Assembly: GCA_029432815.1 (NCBI GenBank)
Contig: JAROBA010000005.1
Coordinates: forward strand, 1-64,000
Length of the DNA stretch: 64,000 nt
Direction of reading: 5' to 3'
Source of the DNA: Pontiellaceae bacterium B1224
GTDB taxonomy: Bacteria; Verrucomicrobiota; Kiritimatiellia; Kiritimatiellales; Pontiellaceae
The position numbers and the translations under genes were made by a program. Shown piece after piece: positions 28,049 through 35,348 of the stretch. Position 1 is the stretch's first letter; the number at the start of each line of letters is the position of its first letter. Under the pieces are notes generated by a model. That model was not told the DNA's origin, made no database searches, and was given only the letters and a program-made list of their open reading frames with translations.

Positions 28049-29290
28049 TCATACCGCAACAGACTCGCGTTCCTGCCGTTCGCCAGCATCGCTAAAATGC
28101 TCCTGAGGGCGTCCGCACACAAACGGAACGTCCTGGCGCGGTTCGAGAATCTCAATGGCCTCAGCGGCCGTTTTACAGGCCAACAGTGCTTTTCGCACAG
28201 CGGGGTCGAGCATCCGTTTGGATATTTTCGAGAGGATCGCTAGATATTCATCGCAAAATCCTTCGGGCGTCACGAGCAGGAAAACAAAGTGCGTTAATGT
28301 GCCGTCGTCGCTGCCGAAGTCGATGCCTTCGGGAAAAATTCCCACCGTGCCGGCCACACCGTAAAACCCCGGAAGCCTGACGTGCGGAAAAGCTGATTCG
28401 CAATCCACCGCCGTGGAGGATATCTGTTCACGTTCGAAGGCGCGTTTGAGAATGTCCTCCTTGCTGGCGAGCGGTAATTGATTATGGCGAATCAGATTAT
28501 CAACCATGCATTCCAGGGCTTCGGCCTTGTTGCGGGAACGCAACTGAGGCTTGATCAGACGGCCCCACAAAAGGCGACGCAGGCTGGTGTGACCCAGCGG
28601 AGGGCTCGATAACAAAATCAATGGGTTTGCGACCGTCTTTGCCAGTTGATCAGGTAAAGACCCTGCAAAGTCGGCAACCAAACGCAATGGGCTTGGAGCC
28701 CCGACCACCAGCAAATCATCCGCACGCAGGCTCTCCGCAACGGCACTTGCAAAATCAGGTCCGCGGCATTGGATGGAATTCACCTGCATATCGAGCAAAC
28801 GTACACACATTTTTTCAAGCGGATCATTGTCGGCAGAATCATTGCACAGACCACATTCCTCCGCAGAAGTACAGTGCAGGATTTCCAAGGGAACACCAAG
28901 ACCGGAGGCCGCCTCCCTCGCCAGCCACATCTGTTCGTAGAGATTAGGCCCGCCCCCGGTTGCCACGACGATACGGCCAATCTTCTGACCATTCGTCGTA
29001 CGAACAAAAACCGCCGGTACCCCACGCTTTTGCGCGAGATGAAGCAGATCCTGCATCGCCCGCGTATTGCCCAGCCACTCGGAGATGATCAGGTCGAGTT
29101 TGTTTTCCTTGGCAAGTTGCCGGGTTTCGGCAACCGCTGTCGCATCATCCTCCGGAACGGCAAAGCCAGGAACGAATACGTGGTGATGAATGGCATCGTT
29201 CGAGCCGGCGAGAAATTTCGCATGCTCAAACATTTCTGCCTCGGCCCCATACGAAGCCACAACAGCAATTTGAGTACATTGAGTTTTCAT
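28049..29290 (-). CDS. Universal stress-like protein fused to a PTS EIIA domain
   Basis: A 413-aa protein. The N-terminal 250 residues are a double Usp-type alpha/beta region, ending with the Usp signature GxxSPLRLVADFAGSLPDQLAKTVANPLILLSS. From about 270 a fructose/nitrogen-type EIIA domain follows, with the likely phospho-histidine at His303 (FPHVRLPGFYG). The fusion suggests a Usp switch controlled by PTS phosphorylation (inference). It is the last gene of the minus-strand unit with Rnk and the micro-ORF. The paralogue at 30826-31662 has no EIIA domain. Confidence 0.82.
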   Translation of the reverse strand: MKTQCTQIAVVASYGAEAEMFEHAKFLAGSNDAIHHHVFVPGFAVPEDDATAVAETRQLAKENKLDLIISEWLGNTRAMQDLLHLAQKRGVPAVFVRTTNGQKIGRIVVATGGGPNLYEQMWLAREAASGLGVPLEILHCTSAEECGLCNDSADNDPLEKMCVRLLDMQVNSIQCRGPDFASAVAESLRADDLLVVGAPSPLRLVADFAGSLPDQLAKTVANPLILLSSPPLGHTSLRRLLWGRLIKPQLRSRNKAEALECMVDNLIRHNQLPLASKEDILKRAFEREQISSTAVDCESAFPHVRLPGFYGVAGTVGIFPEGIDFGSDDGTLTHFVFLLVTPEGFCDEYLAILSKISKRMLDPAVRKALLACKTAAEAIEILEPRQDVPFVCGRPQEHFSDAGERQERESVAV

Positions 29291-29304: not shown

Positions 29305-29727
29305 TTAGCATGCCTTGCATGCCGAGTTGTTTTCCGGTTGAAATAATATTTCTTCGACGCGCAACCGGCAAGAACCCTCCGGAAGCGGCCATTCAATTTC
29401 CTGTCCGACACGGCTGCCGAGCAATGCCATACCCAGCGGTGCGAGCACGTTGATCCGACCTTCGGAAGCATTGGCTTCATTCGGCCAGGAGAGCGTAAAG
29501 CTGTACTCGTCGCCTAGTCCTAGATCTAAAATCTTTACCAGTGAGTTCATGGTGACGATATCCCATGGGATGTCTCGATCAGTCACCAACTGCGCACGCG
29601 CCAATTCCTGCCCCAGATTTTCGAATGACTTTTTATCTGTGCCGGATTTCAGGTATCGTTGCTGCTCAACCAATTCGGTTAACCGTGCGTGATCCGGCCA
29701 GGTCATGATGATGGGTTGTTCTTTCAT
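29305..29727 (-). CDS. Rnk/GreA-like regulator, copy 1
   Basis: A 140-aa protein of the Rnk family, related to the C-terminal domain of GreA/GreB, which binds RNA polymerase. The pattern is an N-terminal helical region (MTWPDHARLTELVEQQ), and a C-terminal FKBP-like fold with VLAPLGMALLGSRVGQEIEWPLPEG. It ends in two cysteines (CKAC). It is 65-70 percent like the copy at 31675-32097 by eye. It lies between the micro-ORF and the Usp-EIIA gene, in a unit driven by the sigma-54 promoter at 29982-29997. Confidence 0.85.
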   Translation of the reverse strand: MKEQPIIMTWPDHARLTELVEQQRYLKSGTDKKSFENLGQELARAQLVTDRDIPWDIVTMNSLVKILDLGLGDEYSFTLSWPNEANASEGRINVLAPLGMALLGSRVGQEIEWPLPEGSCRLRVEEILFQPENNSACKAC

Positions 29728-29756: not shown

Positions 29757-29942
29757 TTAGTTCCGACGTTTGGTAACAGCTTCCATACGGGAAGCCTGCT
29801 GAGATGCCCGCATCTTTCGCCTCAGAGCTGCGAAAGGCAGAGGAACAGCAACGGAACTCTGATTGATGATCAATCGCGGTGCCGCGGATTTCTGACCTTT
29901 TTCTATGGCCCGATGTGGCAATAAAGAAATTGAATAGTTCAT
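29757..29942 (-). CDS. Micro-ORF 1, basic peptide of the cassette
   Basis: A 61-aa basic peptide starting MNYSISLLPHRAIEKG. An AGGAGG ribosome site lies 7 bp upstream of 29942, so I prefer this start over a longer frame to 30023 that would read through the sigma-54 promoter. It resembles micro-ORF 2 at 32128-32301 in length, position and pattern (RA, PR, P-L-x-F, a basic C-terminus). No known family. As first gene after the sigma-54 promoter it could be a regulator, leader peptide or ribosome- or RNA-associated peptide. Confidence 0.68.
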   Translation of the reverse strand: MNYSISLLPHRAIEKGQKSAAPRLIINQSSVAVPLPFAALRRKMRASQQASRMEAVTKRRN

Positions 29943-29981
29943 GTTTATTACCTCCTTCTGTTGCTTAGATGACTTCCCTAA

Positions 29982-29997
29982 TGCACCAGGTGTGCCA
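29982..29997 (-). promoter_or_regulatory. Sigma-54 promoter, cassette 1
   Basis: On the minus strand it reads TGGCAC-ACCTG-GTGCA, with the invariant GG and GC in the -24/-12 register, and TTGGCAC on the 5' side. It precedes micro-ORF 1 by about 40 bp, giving a start site near 29970. Confidence 0.85.
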
Positions 29998-30185
29998 ACG
30001 CAGTTTACTGACCGATTAGACACTAAAATTCGGCCAGCTTAGGACTGGCTAGTAATTCACAACCCACTGTATTAGATAGAGTTGAAGTATAGATATTTAT
30101 AATAATCAGCTACTGTTGGTTCTCAGTATAAATGCATCAAAGAACCTTTGGACAATGTAGACAAATCCCCCAGCAGGGAATAATG

Positions 30186-30198
30186 CCCCGCCCGGAAA
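30186..30198. promoter_or_regulatory. Candidate upstream activator element 1
   Basis: CCCCGCCCGGAAA lies exactly 189 bp upstream of the end of the sigma-54 core (29997). The same 13-mer is at the same distance from the second promoter, which is a typical enhancer range. Conservation through recent duplication alone is the alternative. Confidence 0.4.
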
Positions 30199-30258
30199 AT
30201 ACTTGCTGACGCACTCTTTATTAAGCAGGAGGGACGCCTCGATGATGACCCTTTCGCC

Positions 30259-30285
30259 AAAAAAAAGCCCCGGATTCCCGGGGCT
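30259..30285 (-). terminator. Intrinsic terminator of the HPF-like gene
   Basis: On the minus strand AGCCCCGG (30278-30285 pairs with 30266-30273), loop of four, then a run of T residues (30259-30266 A-run on plus). It follows the stop of the HPF-like gene by about 30 bp. Confidence 0.85.
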
Positions 30286-30313
30286 GGTTGTATGTTAGTA
30301 TTGTGAAGGTGCT

Positions 30314-30736
30314 TTAAGCGGTAGCATCGTAAGCCCGGCGGCCGTGAACGCGGCTGGCAATGCGGCGTCCATGGCGCTTCACGAGCTGGCGTTCAACCCG
30401 CTCGAAGCAGTTGGCCAACGCGCTGTAGACCCCGTCGTGTGCGCCCAATGTTTCTTGACTGTGCGCCACATAGAGTTGCTCGCCGGGTACTGACAGCCGT
30501 ACCTTGACCTGGAAGGCACCTTTGCCTTCATGGTGACGAGTTTTGGTAACCACCACTGTAGCGTGCGCATCCGGCAACGCATATTTATCAAACTTTTCCA
30601 TCAGCTGGTCCACCACCGTGAGTACGTGCCGCGACCCGTGCATGTGCCGGAACCGTACCGCCACGGGAATTCCGAAAGTGGATTCATCACTGCTGTAGTA
30701 AGAAGGTACATACTTAATTTTCTGTGCTGTTTGCAT
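30314..30736 (-). CDS. HPF/RaiA-like ribosome hibernation factor
   Basis: A 140-aa basic protein with the beta-alpha-beta-beta-alpha pattern of the HPF/RaiA (sigma-54 modulation) family: IPVAVRFRHM, then LMEKFDKYALPDAHATVVV, FQVKVRLSVPGEQLYV, and an amphipathic helix (YSALANCFERVERQLVKRHGRR). Such proteins bind idle ribosomes in stationary phase. The length is of the short form. It is the last gene of the unit micro-ORF 2, Rnk 2, Usp 2, HPF, and has its own terminator. Confidence 0.82.
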   Translation of the reverse strand: MQTAQKIKYVPSYYSSDESTFGIPVAVRFRHMHGSRHVLTVVDQLMEKFDKYALPDAHATVVVTKTRHHEGKGAFQVKVRLSVPGEQLYVAHSQETLGAHDGVYSALANCFERVERQLVKRHGRRIASRVHGRRAYDATA

Positions 30737-30825
30737 GATATCGACTCCTTATCTTAATGGTTATTCTGCAATTTTCGACTGCCGGACATTCTTGTCCCAA
30801 AAAATATAGATTCCTTCCATTCATC

Positions 30826-31662
30826 TCATCGTGACAAGACTACCTCCTTGGAACGACGGGCTCCCTCCTGTGGGAGGGAAGGAAGGGCGCGCCCCATATT
30901 ACTATGGGAACGTAGCCGGGGTTTAACCATCCGTCCCCACAAAAGACGGCGCAGGCCAATACGACCCGGAGGAGGACTTGATAGCAGAATCAACGGGTTT
31001 TGAACCGTTCTCGCCAGTTGATCGGGCAAGGATCCTGCAAAGTCGGACACCAAACGCAACGGGCTGGTCGCTCCGATGAGAAGCAAATCATCCGGACGTA
31101 GACTGCCACCAACAGCGTCTGAAAAATTGGGTCCACTGCATTGCACAAACTCTACCTCCATACCGAGCAGACGCAGACACATCCTTTCAAACCGGTCGTT
31201 TTCTGCGATCTCTTCTGCTGTAGGACCATTTACGGTGCCGGTCCAATGCAGGATGGCCACGGGTGCCCCGTTCCTGGCCGCCACTTCGCGCGCCAACCAC
31301 ATCTGTTCGTAGAGACTCGGCCCGCCACCTGTAGCAATCACGATGCGGCCAACCTTCGGCGCATCCATCGTGCGCACGAAAACAGCCGTTACACCGCGTT
31401 CCTGAGCGAGATGAATCAAATCCTGCATGGCCCGAGTGTTATTGAGCCACTCTGATGCAATCAGATCGATTTTTTTGGATGTTACGAGTTGCCGTACCTC
31501 AGCAACCGCCATCTCTTCGTCTTCAGGAACAGCGAAACTCGGAACAAAGATATGGTGAAGCTCCGCTTCGCGTGGGGTAGCTAGGGATTTCGCATACCCG
31601 AACATTTCTTCTTCTGCACCACACGCAGTCACAATAGCCACCTGGATACGTTGAGTTTTCAA
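30826..31662 (-). CDS. Universal stress-like protein, copy 2, without EIIA
   Basis: A 278-aa protein collinear with the first about 250 residues of the Usp-EIIA fusion at 28049-29290. It keeps the same signature (GATSPLRLVSDFAGSLPDQLARTVQNPLILLSS), followed by a short basic tail (RLRSHSNMGRALPSL...). It lacks the EIIA domain, so only one of the two cassettes has the phosphorylation module. It is separated by 12 bp from Rnk 2. Usp proteins bind ATP or small molecules and protect cells in stationary phase; the ligand here is not known. Confidence 0.82.
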   Translation of the reverse strand: MKTQRIQVAIVTACGAEEEMFGYAKSLATPREAELHHIFVPSFAVPEDEEMAVAEVRQLVTSKKIDLIASEWLNNTRAMQDLIHLAQERGVTAVFVRTMDAPKVGRIVIATGGGPSLYEQMWLAREVAARNGAPVAILHWTGTVNGPTAEEIAENDRFERMCLRLLGMEVEFVQCSGPNFSDAVGGSLRPDDLLLIGATSPLRLVSDFAGSLPDQLARTVQNPLILLSSPPPGRIGLRRLLWGRMVKPRLRSHSNMGRALPSLPQEGARRSKEVVLSR

Positions 31663-31674
31663 TTTAGATCTCCT

Positions 31675-32097
31675 TTAGCATACCTTGGATGCTTTACTGT
31701 ATTCTGGTTGAAATAAGATTTCATCGACCCGCAATCGGCATATACCGTCCGGTAGCGGCCATTCAATTTCCTGTCCGACACGACTGCCGAGCAAGGCCAT
31801 GCCCAGCGGTGCGAGCACATTAATTCGGTTTTCAGATACCTTGGCTTCCTTTGGCCAGGAAAGCGTGAAGCTATACTCATCTCCCAGCTCCATATCGAAA
31901 ACCTGCACCGTGGAATTCATGGTGATGACATCTGCCGGAATGTCCTGCTCAGCCACGAGCTGCGCACGTGACAGCTCATGGCCCAGCTTTTCGAAAGCCT
32001 GCCGGTCTGCGCGGGGGTTCAGAATGCGATGCTCTTCAAGTAATCGCGTAAGCAGTGAGTGGTCCGGCCACGTCATGATGATGGGTTGTTCTTTCAT
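31675..32097 (-). CDS. Rnk/GreA-like regulator, copy 2
   Basis: A 140-aa paralogue of the Rnk-like protein at 29305-29727, same length and same motifs (MTWPDHSLLTRLLEEH, VLAPLGMALLGSRVGQEIEWPLPDG). The last residues (SKASKVC) keep one of the two terminal cysteines of the other copy. It lies between micro-ORF 2 and Usp 2. Duplicate Rnk proteins in one locus suggest distinct dosage or targets in the two transcription units. Confidence 0.85.
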   Translation of the reverse strand: MKEQPIIMTWPDHSLLTRLLEEHRILNPRADRQAFEKLGHELSRAQLVAEQDIPADVITMNSTVQVFDMELGDEYSFTLSWPKEAKVSENRINVLAPLGMALLGSRVGQEIEWPLPDGICRLRVDEILFQPEYSKASKVC

Positions 32098-32127
32098 TGA
32101 ATTATTCCTTTCTGTTCTGAGTTAGTA

Positions 32128-32301
32128 CTATTTTTTGTTAATGATTTTTCTTCTAGCCTTCTTCCATCGTATTCGCACCATTCGCCACAAGGTTGGGAAA
32201 AGCAGCGGAATGGGTGTGAAATTGCCGTCCGGACGAGGCTTGGTCCGAAGCCGGTGCCGATCCCGGGCCCGTTGCCCCAATGCCATAAAATAGACTGTCA
32301 T
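32128..32301 (-). CDS. Micro-ORF 2, basic peptide of the cassette
   Basis: A 57-aa strongly basic peptide (MTVYFMALGQRARDRH... ending KKARRKIINKK). An AAGGAGG ribosome site precedes 32301. Alignment by eye with micro-ORF 1 shows RA near 11-12, a PR, a PLLF/PLPF segment and a basic helix at the end. No family was recognised. It directly follows the second sigma-54 promoter, so its synthesis should start each response. Confidence 0.68.
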   Translation of the reverse strand: MTVYFMALGQRARDRHRLRTKPRPDGNFTPIPLLFPTLWRMVRIRWKKARRKIINKK

Positions 32302-32341
32302 GATTTAAACCTCCTTGATGTTGCTTGGTTGCCTCCCCTAA

Positions 32342-32357
32342 TGCACCGGGTGTGCCA
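32342..32357 (-). promoter_or_regulatory. Sigma-54 promoter, cassette 2
   Basis: On the minus strand it reads TGGCAC-ACCCG-GTGCA, in the correct -24/-12 register, one base different from the first promoter in the spacer. It lies about 41 bp upstream of micro-ORF 2. Confidence 0.85.
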
Positions 32358-32545
32358 ACGCAATGAATCGACCGGCGATCAACGTGCCAGAAGGAGATGA
32401 ATCAAGAAGATGGAAGCCACAATCAGCTCAGGGGGTTGTGCTTGCGCGAATGATACTTTTCTTTAAACGGAGTACCGGGCACGCGAGGAAAAGGCTTGGC
32501 CGCGCGGCGAAAAGTGCAGAGAAATTCCCCGGACGAGTAGAAACT

Positions 32546-32561: not shown

Positions 32562-33890
32562 CTACGCCTTGAGCTTGTTCTGGAGGGTCTTGCGGTCGAT
32601 GCCCAGGATGGCAGCAGCGCGGGTTTTATTACCGCCGGCACCCGCAAGTACAGCCTGAATATGTTCAGCTTCGACCTGCGCGAGCGAACGAGGTGCGCCA
32701 CCTTGCGAGGCGCTGAAGCGCATCAGTTCCGGGAGCTGCGGTGCGGAAATCTCGTTGCCCTCGGCCATCAGTACCAGGCGCTGTACCACATTTTCAAGTT
32801 CGCGGACGTTGCCGGGCCAGGCGTAGGCCTCGAACAGCTCCAGCACCCGATCGTTAAATGTGGGAGCTGGCTTTCCTTGTTCTTTGGCAAAGCGGGTTGC
32901 AAAAAATTGAATCAGCAGCGGGATGTCTCCGCCCCGCTCCCGCAGGGGAGGAATCTCAACCGGTACAACATTAATACGGTAGAAGAGGTCTTCGCGAAAC
33001 TCGCCTTTTTCGACGAGCGTTTCGAGCTTCTTATTGGTGGCCGCCACCACGCGCACATCCACCTTTCGCGGCTCACGGTCGCCGACCATATAGACGACCT
33101 TATCCTGAAGCACACGCAGCAATGCGGCCTGCATCGACATAGGCAATTCGGCAATTTCGTCGAGAAAGATCGTTCCTTTTTCCGCTGCCTGGAAAAACCC
33201 GGTGCGCGATTCAACGGCTCCGGTATAGGCTCCTTTACGTGCGCCGAAAAGTTCGCTTTCGAGTAGTCCGTCGGGAATCCCGCCGCAGTTGACCGGAATG
33301 AACGGGGCGGCCGCGCGACTGCTGCCGTAGTGCATGGCACGGGCCACGAGTTCCTTGCCGGTACCGCTTTCGCCCAGAATGAGCACGGTGGCGGAACTGT
33401 CCGCAGCCTTCTCAATGGAACGATAGACCGCTTTCATTTTTTTGGATTCACCCAGAATGCCCCATTGAGCCGGATCCGGTGCAACATCGCTCTCAACCGT
33501 CCGGCGCAGATGCAACCGGGCAATCGCCTGCTCAACGGATTCAAGGAGTTCAGCATCGGTGAAAGGTTTGGCGAGATAGCTGTGTGCTCCGGTCTGCATA
33601 GCCTCGACAGCACCCGGCACGGAGGCGTAGCCCGTGACCATGATGATTTCGGCATCGATATAATTTTCACGAACGTGTCGAATCAGATCAAGGCCGCTGG
33701 CTTTAGGCATGCGCAGATCCGTAATGACCAAATCCGCCGGTAAGGCATTCAATGCCCGCACGGCCTCGGCGACTCCGGGCACGGTGTGGACTTCGAAGCC
33801 GGCGGCGGAAAGGTTGCGGCGTATAACTTCCAGCGTGTCGGGTGAATCATCGACGACGAGGATGCGTTCTGATTTTTTATTCTTGCTCAT
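32562..33890 (-). CDS. Sigma-54-dependent response regulator (NtrC family)
   Basis: A 442-aa regulator with three domains. The receiver has DDS and phospho-acceptor Asp58 (LVITDLRMPKASG). The AAA+ domain has Walker A GESGTGKE, the sigma-54 contact loop GAYTGA (the Tyr form of GAFTGA), and Walker B IFLDEIAELP. A Fis-type helix-turn-helix ends the protein (NKTRAAAILGIDRKTLQNKL). It should open the three sigma-54 promoters of this island when phosphorylated (inference from proximity). The start at 33890 follows an AGGAG site and overlaps the histidine kinase stop by 14 bp, so the two are co-translated. Confidence 0.94.
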   Translation of the reverse strand: MSKNKKSERILVVDDSPDTLEVIRRNLSAAGFEVHTVPGVAEAVRALNALPADLVITDLRMPKASGLDLIRHVRENYIDAEIIMVTGYASVPGAVEAMQTGAHSYLAKPFTDAELLESVEQAIARLHLRRTVESDVAPDPAQWGILGESKKMKAVYRSIEKAADSSATVLILGESGTGKELVARAMHYGSSRAAAPFIPVNCGGIPDGLLESELFGARKGAYTGAVESRTGFFQAAEKGTIFLDEIAELPMSMQAALLRVLQDKVVYMVGDREPRKVDVRVVAATNKKLETLVEKGEFREDLFYRINVVPVEIPPLRERGGDIPLLIQFFATRFAKEQGKPAPTFNDRVLELFEAYAWPGNVRELENVVQRLVLMAEGNEISAPQLPELMRFSASQGGAPRSLAQVEAEHIQAVLAGAGGNKTRAAAILGIDRKTLQNKLKA

Positions 33891-35004
33891 GAGATTCTCC
33901 TGCATTGTGTAGGCGGCGCAGCGGCAGTCGAACGGTGGCACGTGTTCCCTGCCCGAGTGTACTTTCCAGCGCGATCGTCCCTTCATGGCCGGCGATGATG
34001 CCATGCACGACCGACAGGCCGAGCCCCGTTCCTTCGTCTATATCCTTTGTGGTGAAGAACGGATCGAAGATACGCGGCAGGACGTCCGGATCAATGCCGA
34101 AGCCGGTGTCGGTAACGGTTAACCGCAGCCATTCGCCGTCACGCATTGTGGAAATGCTCAGCTCGCCGCCGTCGGGCATGGCCTGGATGGCGTTGACTGC
34201 GAGATTGGTAATGACCTGTCGCAACTGCACATCGTCGGCCACAATTTCGGGGATGGTTTCATCGAGGGCGTATTCGAGCCGAATATCCGATGCCGCACAG
34301 CGCGGTCGCCAAATGGATTCGCTTTCCTTGATGAGCCGGTTGATATCTACCCGCACGTCGCGCGGGGTTGTTTGCCGAGCGAAGGTCATCAGACGCCGGA
34401 TAATGTCGCGTGCATGCAGGGTGGCGGACTCAATCTTCGCAATGTCGCCTTGCGCCTGTTGCGGCAGGTCAGGTGTTTTGGAGAGCAGTTGTGCAAAGCC
34501 CAGAATACCGCCGAGCGGTTCGTTGAGTTCGTGCGCAACACCGGCAGCCAGCTGGCCGATGGTTGCGAGCCGGTCCGAGTGCCTCAATTTTGCATGCAGG
34601 CGTTCCTGTTCCGCCGCCGTTTCGCGGCGGTCGATGATCAGCCCCACCTGCCGGACTACTTCTTTCAGCAGTTTCTGTTCTTCGTCAAGAAACGAGATTT
34701 GGTTGGATGAATAGCCGACTTCAAGCGAGCCGCGTACCTGCCCGCGAACAATAATCGGAGCCGACAGCCTGTGATCGAATGCCGCGCGAACTCCGCCGCA
34801 GAATTCATTGCTGTCGAGCACGACACGTGCTGCGGCACGGTGCGGAATTTGCCAGGCCTCCGGCAGGGCATCGGCAACGCCCTGGAGAATATCCCCGAGC
34901 GAGGCCGTCGGATTTCCGGAAACCTGTGCGATGGCATAGAGGCAACCGAGTTCTTTAACCCGTTCCTGCAGCTTTCGTTCAATATCGTTGTGTTCAGTAT
35001 CCAT
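33877..35004 (-). CDS. Histidine kinase with GAF-like sensor
   Basis: A 375-aa soluble-looking kinase. The N-terminal about 130 residues form a GAF-like sensor domain (LYAIAQVSGN ... GQVRGSLEVGYS). A HisKA domain follows with the phospho-histidine in GVAHELNEPLGGILGF, then HATPase with NLAVNAIQAM (N box), DTGFGID (G1) and GTGLGLSVVHG (G2). No membrane segment is seen, so the signal is probably cytoplasmic. It is translationally coupled to the sigma-54 activator and is its likely partner. An upstream ATG at 35067 would add 21 residues. Confidence 0.93.
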   Translation of the reverse strand: MDTEHNDIERKLQERVKELGCLYAIAQVSGNPTASLGDILQGVADALPEAWQIPHRAAARVVLDSNEFCGGVRAAFDHRLSAPIIVRGQVRGSLEVGYSSNQISFLDEEQKLLKEVVRQVGLIIDRRETAAEQERLHAKLRHSDRLATIGQLAAGVAHELNEPLGGILGFAQLLSKTPDLPQQAQGDIAKIESATLHARDIIRRLMTFARQTTPRDVRVDINRLIKESESIWRPRCAASDIRLEYALDETIPEIVADDVQLRQVITNLAVNAIQAMPDGGELSISTMRDGEWLRLTVTDTGFGIDPDVLPRIFDPFFTTKDIDEGTGLGLSVVHGIIAGHEGTIALESTLGQGTRATVRLPLRRLHNAGESHEQE

Positions 35005-35090
35005 AAACACTTCCAAGTAATATAAAAATCTAGCACACCCAAGCGAATTGTTCACCGAACGTTGCATCTGCTATTTGCTCGCGCATGCAC

Positions 35091-35332: not shown

Positions 35333-35348
35333 TGCAACAAGCATGCCA
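35333..35348 (-). promoter_or_regulatory. Sigma-54 promoter, micro-ORF 3
   Basis: On the minus strand it reads TGGCAT-GCTTG-TTGCA, in the -24/-12 register and with the canonical TTGCA. It is about 52 bp upstream of micro-ORF 3. No third copy of the CCCCGCCCGGAAA element is at 189 bp. Confidence 0.85.

Follow-up and report, generated by a model that had tools for sequence, protein, structure and literature searches.

The first 64,000 nucleotides of contig JAROBA010000005.1 from Pontiellaceae bacterium B1224, the stretch analysed here as a whole and called the window, carry on their minus strand two units, probably stress operons, in which a sigma-54-type promoter is followed by a very short open reading frame (ORF) and by a gene for a protein of the Rnk family. 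The two short ORFs, micro-ORF 1 in unit 1 (61 aa) and micro-ORF 2 in unit 2 (57 aa), are shown here to be conserved coding sequences of a single, previously unclassified family of small basic proteins, referred to as family A. Its members are 57–67 aa long and occur in nine copies in five genomes, belonging to the Pontiellaceae and to one other family of the order; IPRLFPTLWR is the family core, from which some members depart. What are such peptides for? The reading that we favour, with a probability of about 45%, is that family A is a sigma-54-induced basic peptide which would bind RNA, the ribosome or RNA polymerase and would be made together with Rnk during growth arrest.

An earlier, sequence-only reading of the window had described the micro-ORFs as having good ribosome sites and as resembling each other, and both points hold. 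Each is an ATG ORF with AAGGAGG 8 nt upstream (the ribosome site of rnk is weaker, AAAGGA), and the two peptides, about 27% identical, align better than shuffled sequences both locally (score 39 against a shuffle mean of 21.5, reached by 2/1000 shuffles) and globally (1/1000). The homologues which that reading expected upstream of rnk genes also exist: there are seven further copies in four other genomes, so that the window genome, G008, G024 and G032 have two each and G027 has one. A search with micro-ORF 2 brings up relatives from three further genomes of the genus (E 4.9e-14, 9.6e-12, 1.0e-11 and 2.8e-6), all of them located immediately before rnk, and a single-sequence search with micro-ORF 1 brings up one at E 5.9e-6. 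Since the members were collected by reading the leaders of rnk genes, how well do they hold together as a family? Leave-one-out profiles, run against the six frames of each member's own locus or the window, recover all nine (E 1e-7 to 2.8e-21); with the other eight members as the profile, the E-value in the window is 1.4e-18 for micro-ORF 2 and 1.4e-8 for micro-ORF 1. Micro-ORF 1 and G032_b do not exceed shuffles when compared directly (75/1000), though the profile recovers both. A search with the full profile, covering 345 class genomes and 387 phylum genomes, returns the same nine accepted members. Weak matches in G088, G421, G422, G089, G167, G063, G276 and G184 (E 2e-5 to 0.01) were rejected: their best stretches align over 20–37 residues, none is an ORF of 57–67 aa when both strands are read, and six of the eight fall inside frames of 125–1037 codons. 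The frames at G167 and G276 are short (28 and 64 codons), and these two matches are rejected less firmly. By tblastn, micro-ORF 2 had no match among plasmids, nor the L065 member among phages.

All nine members have an isoelectric point of 11.5–12 and a net charge of +7 to +15. The core, written as IPRL[FI]P[TSI][LI] after the alignment had been seen, is present in seven of the nine and absent from all 180000 shuffled sequences; the window copies depart from it, with IPLLFPTL in micro-ORF 2 and VPLPFAAL in micro-ORF 1. The claim that the family is new stands, as searches of Pfam and NCBIfam with all nine members, and of PHROG with the two window copies, returned nothing significant. Neither did PDB sequences; the best match there, YeiE (E 0.01), covers part of an unrelated fold and was set aside. 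AlphaFold2, run with four sequences, places helices at residues 3–19 and 34–56, the second with a predicted local distance difference test score (pLDDT) near 80.

Is the amino-acid sequence itself under selection? The argument first put forward was that the micro-ORFs had stayed alike while the DNA around them diverged. This is contradicted by blastn between the two units, which finds alignments at the promoter (83% over 65 nt) and at the start of rnk (91% over 44 nt) and leaves the ORFs unaligned; it is the flanks that are better conserved. The ratio of non-synonymous to synonymous differences (pN/pS) between the two ORFs is 0.85 [0.66–1.11], indistinguishable from neutrality, and with the better-conserved flanks this means that the pair alone cannot show protein-level selection. 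The evidence for it comes from the homologues. Under a GY+F3X4 codon model omega is 0.535 for the nine members, with twice the log-likelihood difference (2dlnL) from omega = 1 being 19.8, it is 0.481 without micro-ORF 1 (2dlnL 22.6), and 0.380 for win_u2 (micro-ORF 2), B_a, B_b, G027 and G024_b (2dlnL 23.2), a subset that was chosen by the analyst and leaves out micro-ORF 1, G024_c and the G032 copies; these 2dlnL values are slightly inflated, as kappa was fixed at the alternative's best value and only omega was set to 1. The Ka/Ks check that had been suggested at the outset thus gives a ratio below 1 for the family. For the same sets, Rnk has an omega of 0.12–0.14. Counts of mismatches by codon position are weak when taken alone (best p 0.03, six of eight pairs not significant), and pS is near saturation in many pairs, which makes pairwise dN/dS rough there.

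The two window copies do not fare alike. Micro-ORF 1 and its nearest relative, B_b, are the pair with the smallest pS (0.37), and their dN/dS is 0.98; the three sequences win_u1 (micro-ORF 1), B_b and win_u2 give an omega of 0.69 that is not significant (2dlnL 2.1). Taken together, the codon models and the pairwise ratios indicate that micro-ORF 2 is under purifying selection and that micro-ORF 1, with core residues lost, looks relaxed or changing in function. The latter retains its open frame, its ribosome site and its charge.

Every one of the nine copies lies directly upstream of rnk. The gap is about 15–40 nt in seven of them; in one the two genes overlap (the stop of G024_b overlaps the rnk ATG) and in one they read through, the frame of G024_c running without a stop into rnk as a 207-aa ORF with a TTG start (L078:10411-11034). 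Conversely, a survey of the Rnk genes in 97 relatives gives ten with 63% identity or more to rnk2 of the window (rnk2 included), all of them in the five genomes, and nine of the ten have a family A peptide; only at G024_a does rnk come straight after the promoter. The peptides had been said always to come first after the promoter. This is true of both window copies and of eight of the nine members, which are the first ORF after a -24/-12 site, but not of G032_a, which is second, behind an rnk-type paralogue that bears the site.

How good is the case for sigma-54? Both micro-ORFs are the first ORF behind TTGGCACACC[T/C]GGTGCATTAGGG. A pattern was built from the two window sites, which therefore show 0 mismatches by construction; allowing up to three mismatches, it occurs at 7 sites in the 5.4 Mb genome, compared with 0 for a reversed-pattern control. 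The other five precede amtB-, nif-, nifH-, clpB- and urtA-type ORFs (names given by eye), and with such targets the pattern behaves as expected of sigma-54. For the -24/-12 pattern scanned at the loci treated below, the background is 4 sites over the window's 128 kb of strand, with these two promoters among the four, and 12 over 229 kb at the further loci L116–L124. What sigma-54 requires is present in the genome: two rpoN genes (TIGR02395 over cut-off; G000:C146:191-1564 and G000:C142:7522-8916) and an activator with a sigma-54 interaction domain (PF00158). The clpB-type gene (by eye), at L089, begins 53 nt from its sigma-54-like site, which has three mismatches.

Looking at the same place in other genomes adds a second peptide family. 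A search of 332 genomes of the class with the sensor kinase encoded next to the units gave 14 matches at E ≤ 1e-70, of which nine come from genomes other than the five with family A. At these nine loci (L116–L124) the regulator is 58–69% identical, and seven also have rnk and usp/EIIA genes; the sequence of L116 ends inside the unit with rnk out of view, and L124 (G343) has kinase and regulator, no rnk match and an unrelated Cys-rich frame after the site. The kinase–regulator–[sigma-54]–rnk–usp module in other families of the class is new here. Behind the -24/-12 site at six of the nine loci (L116–L120 and L122) lies a peptide of 35–56 aa with the motif RKPxxTLKEKRxAKKAKK, called family B, preceded in five of the six by an AAGGAG-type ribosome site. 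Each of the six comes out as the best frame of its locus when left out of the profile (E 1.3e-6 to 1.4e-12). The two pairs that were compared both have a dN/dS of 0.13, and none of the six has a significant match in Pfam or NCBIfam. The six-member profile hits 47 places in 44 of the 332 genomes at E ≤ 0.01, some of the weak ones perhaps by chance given how rich in Lys the profile is, and has no match in the window genome at that threshold. Twenty-five of the 47 places were fetched: six are those in the module and 19 lie elsewhere. None of the 19 has a sigma-54 site within 200 nt or a module protein match in flanks of about 1.5 kb; the 6/6 sites in the module hold by construction, since these peptides were found by reading behind the site. 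The genes outside the module (L131–L149) encode 33–41 aa, typically M[AS]KSHDAKK..KKPTKTLKEKRQxKKAKK, and their ribosome sites are mostly good. With an unrelated family behind the site in six of nine loci and no site at the 19 others, it is, on comparative grounds, the slot that is conserved and not the sequence. Families A and B thereby hint at a shared job in slowing gene expression; as they lack homology, what points to that job is position and charge only.

The genes around the micro-ORFs are listed in the table below. On the minus strand the order is enzyme I (EI) of a phosphotransferase system (PTS), sensor kinase, NtrC-type regulator, unit 2 (sigma-54 site, micro-ORF 2, rnk2, usp2), the hpf-like gene and unit 1 (sigma-54 site, micro-ORF 1, rnk1, usp1-EIIA). 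The sensor kinase is the putative partner of the regulator, which in turn is the putative activator of both promoters. The window Rnk proteins score 112.5 and 111.8 bits with NF004396 against a cut-off of 109, and rnk2 matches the PDB sequences 2pn0 (2e-22) and 3bmb (3e-18). The label usp, given by the sequence-only reading to the downstream genes, is not backed by the searches: no Usp family is matched in Pfam or NCBIfam at E ≤ 1, the N-terminal part of usp1 has no family assignment, so that "Usp-like" is that reading's label only, and usp2, 60% identical to usp1, has no significant match in Pfam, NCBIfam or PDB sequences. Two side observations concern the circuit. A further -24/-12-like site (TGGCATGCTTGTTGC), at 35334–35348 on the minus strand, precedes the sensor kinase ORF by about 280 nt, so that the two-component system may be autoregulated through sigma-54. 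The PTS EI gene, named by eye, lies a few kilobases from usp1, whose EIIA is PtsN-like, and the two could possibly provide a nitrogen-PTS input to the same circuit.

Features of the two units and their neighbours in the window
Feature	Position	Strand	Evidence or comment
usp1	28049..29290	minus	C-terminal PTS EIIA domain, PF00359 1.2e-19 at residues 244-383
rnk1, 140 aa, Rnk family (GreA/GreB C-terminal domain)	29305..29727	minus	PF01272 2.2e-18, PF14760 8.1e-7, NF004396 over cut-off
micro-ORF 1	29757..29942	minus	ATG ORF, 61 aa, family A; divergent copy, looks under relaxed constraint
Shine-Dalgarno AAGGAGG of micro-ORF 1	29951..29957	minus	sequence
sigma-54 -24/-12 promoter of unit 1 (TTGGCACACCTGGTGCATTAGGG)	29976..29998	minus	pattern match
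hpf-like gene (HPF/S30AE domain), between the units	30314..30736	minus	PF02482 2.4e-10 over cut-off; NCBIfam yfiA below cut-off
usp2	30826..31662	minus	TTG start; paralogue of the N-terminal part of usp1, without EIIA
rnk2, 140 aa, Rnk family	31675..32097	minus	PF01272 5.9e-19; NF004396 over cut-off; PF14760 just under cut-off
micro-ORF 2	32128..32301	minus	ATG ORF, 57 aa, family A; purifying selection by codon models
Shine-Dalgarno AAGGAGG of micro-ORF 2	32310..32316	minus	sequence
sigma-54 -24/-12 promoter of unit 2 (TTGGCACACCCGGTGCATTAGGG)	32336..32358	minus	pattern match
NtrC-type response regulator	32562..33890	minus	PF00072, PF00158 (2.3e-69), PF02954; GAYTGA by eye; longest ORF starts 34004
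GAF/HisKA/HATPase sensor kinase	33877..35067	minus	PF02518, PF00512, PF01590

How might these parts work together? The sensor kinase would detect energy or nutrient stress and the regulator would then fire the sigma-54 promoters. The short cationic peptide would be made first, from the stronger ribosome site, and its basic C-terminal helix would bind RNA-rich machinery, either the ribosome or transcribing RNA polymerase; with Rnk binding the polymerase and HPF the ribosome, transcription and translation would be held idle together. Selection would keep a small basic nucleic-acid-binding effector in the slot, which would be why two unrelated sequences can fill it, and micro-ORF 2 would be the working copy with micro-ORF 1 a paralogue drifting away. 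In favour of such a growth-arrest peptide we count homology, adjacency to rnk, purifying selection, charge, the ribosome sites, the module, the two rpoN genes and the HPF-domain gene. Several results weigh against it. The sequence of family A changes much more quickly than that of Rnk (omega 0.54 against 0.14), which is uncommon among proteins that bind a conserved machine. The hpf gene has no -24/-12 site within 250 nt in any of four loci, so that placing hpf in the same regulon is at most a conjecture. The order at L122 is peptide–usp–rnk, so family B is not always beside rnk, and L121, L123 and G024_a have an rnk unit without a peptide, the first two going straight to rnk. Families A and B show no homology (hhalign probability 0.1). 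The AlphaFold2 model is weak overall (pLDDT 63.7, predicted template modelling score 0.31) and has no Foldseek match in the PDB, and the absence of Pfam and NCBIfam matches reported above belongs here too. A wider proposal is that in the class Kiritimatiellae the sigma-54/Rnk/Usp-EIIA growth-arrest operon has one position in which different small basic effectors can stand in for each other. Two or more unrelated families, A and B among them, would have been recruited there and would form a new class of hibernation-type factors acting with Rnk on ribosomes or RNA polymerase. This proposal is tentative and, we think, somewhat doubtful.

Could the peptide act on Rnk itself? It would then bind Rnk, for example as a basic arm docking Rnk on polymerase or in place of the short coiled coil of Rnk, and this is the main rival. 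All nine copies are directly upstream of rnk, and the search of the class and phylum genomes yielded no accepted copy in any other position; the natural in-frame fusion in G024_c and the overlapping stop of G024_b fit as well. We nonetheless rate it as rather unlikely: the 19 stand-alone family B loci imply that a peptide can fill this slot without acting through Rnk, and the rnk genes at G024_a, L121 and L123 do without a peptide. It is also conceivable that translation of the micro-ORF merely couples or tunes translation of rnk, as a leader peptide would, and the fixed position, the short gaps to rnk and the strong ribosome site would suit this. However, the amino-acid sequence is constrained, rnk has a ribosome site of its own, and the ORF of G032_a lies between two rnk-type genes. 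The window units fold no better than shuffles (z +1.09 and -0.92) and the only Rfam match is below the gathering score, results on which a structured leader RNA was rejected. A leader-peptide role is accordingly an unlikely one.

Cationic peptides of which several are W/R-rich, with a predicted C-terminal helix (residues 34–56), may also bring to mind a membrane-active or toxin-like amphipathic peptide. The hydrophobic moment of the helix is generally within the range of shuffles (the fraction reaching it is 0.04–0.79 over the nine members, and only G024_c is below 0.05), which leaves an amphipathic membrane helix unsupported; no signal sequence or transmembrane segment was evident by eye alone and no antitoxin-like partner was seen, so that we consider a role of this kind highly improbable. 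Might the ORFs finally be chance or decaying frames without a product? For micro-ORF 1 taken alone one could argue so from the dN/dS near one, the loss of the IPRLFPTL core and the non-significant three-sequence omega, but it has kept an open frame, ribosome site and charge. For the family, chance is excluded by the codon models (omega 0.38–0.54, 2dlnL 18–23), the leave-one-out recovery of all members and the core motif, and this is the explanation to which we give least credence. The growth-arrest peptide remains the reading that we prefer.

Literature searches among open-licence PMC papers showed no description of these peptides. A conserved and constrained neighbour of Rnk, whose place is filled elsewhere by an unrelated basic peptide, offers a handle on the role of the Rnk unit and on how the little-studied bacteria of the PVC group idle gene expression. 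Beyond this case, conserved operon slots can reveal small proteins whose shortness or rapid evolution hides them from ordinary similarity searches.

How does the system compare with known ones? Families A and B are both small and basic and occupy the same place behind a sigma-54 site (at six loci for family B), but they are not homologous. One family B member weakly resembles the model of ArfB, a protein with a C-terminal basic tail (E 0.53, not significant and a lead only), a resemblance not seen for family A. As for Rnk, the downstream gene in the window belongs to the same family as E. coli Rnk (PDB 3bmb) and is to be compared with it and with the secondary-channel factors; neither such a peptide nor a sigma-54 promoter is known for E. 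coli rnk. PMC4598747 describes Rnk as binding RNA polymerase with no known role. Another parallel is the RMF/HPF pair. RMF is small and very basic, and family A resembles it in being small, very basic and encoded near an HPF-domain gene. In E. coli, according to PMC6904343, RMF and HPF convert 70S ribosomes to inactive 100S dimers, and Rsd and RMF/HPF idle both machines together. Family A differs from RMF in that none of its nine members matches an RMF family in Pfam or NCBIfam at E ≤ 1, in its place within sigma-54 units with rnk, and in its own core, IPRLFPTLWR.

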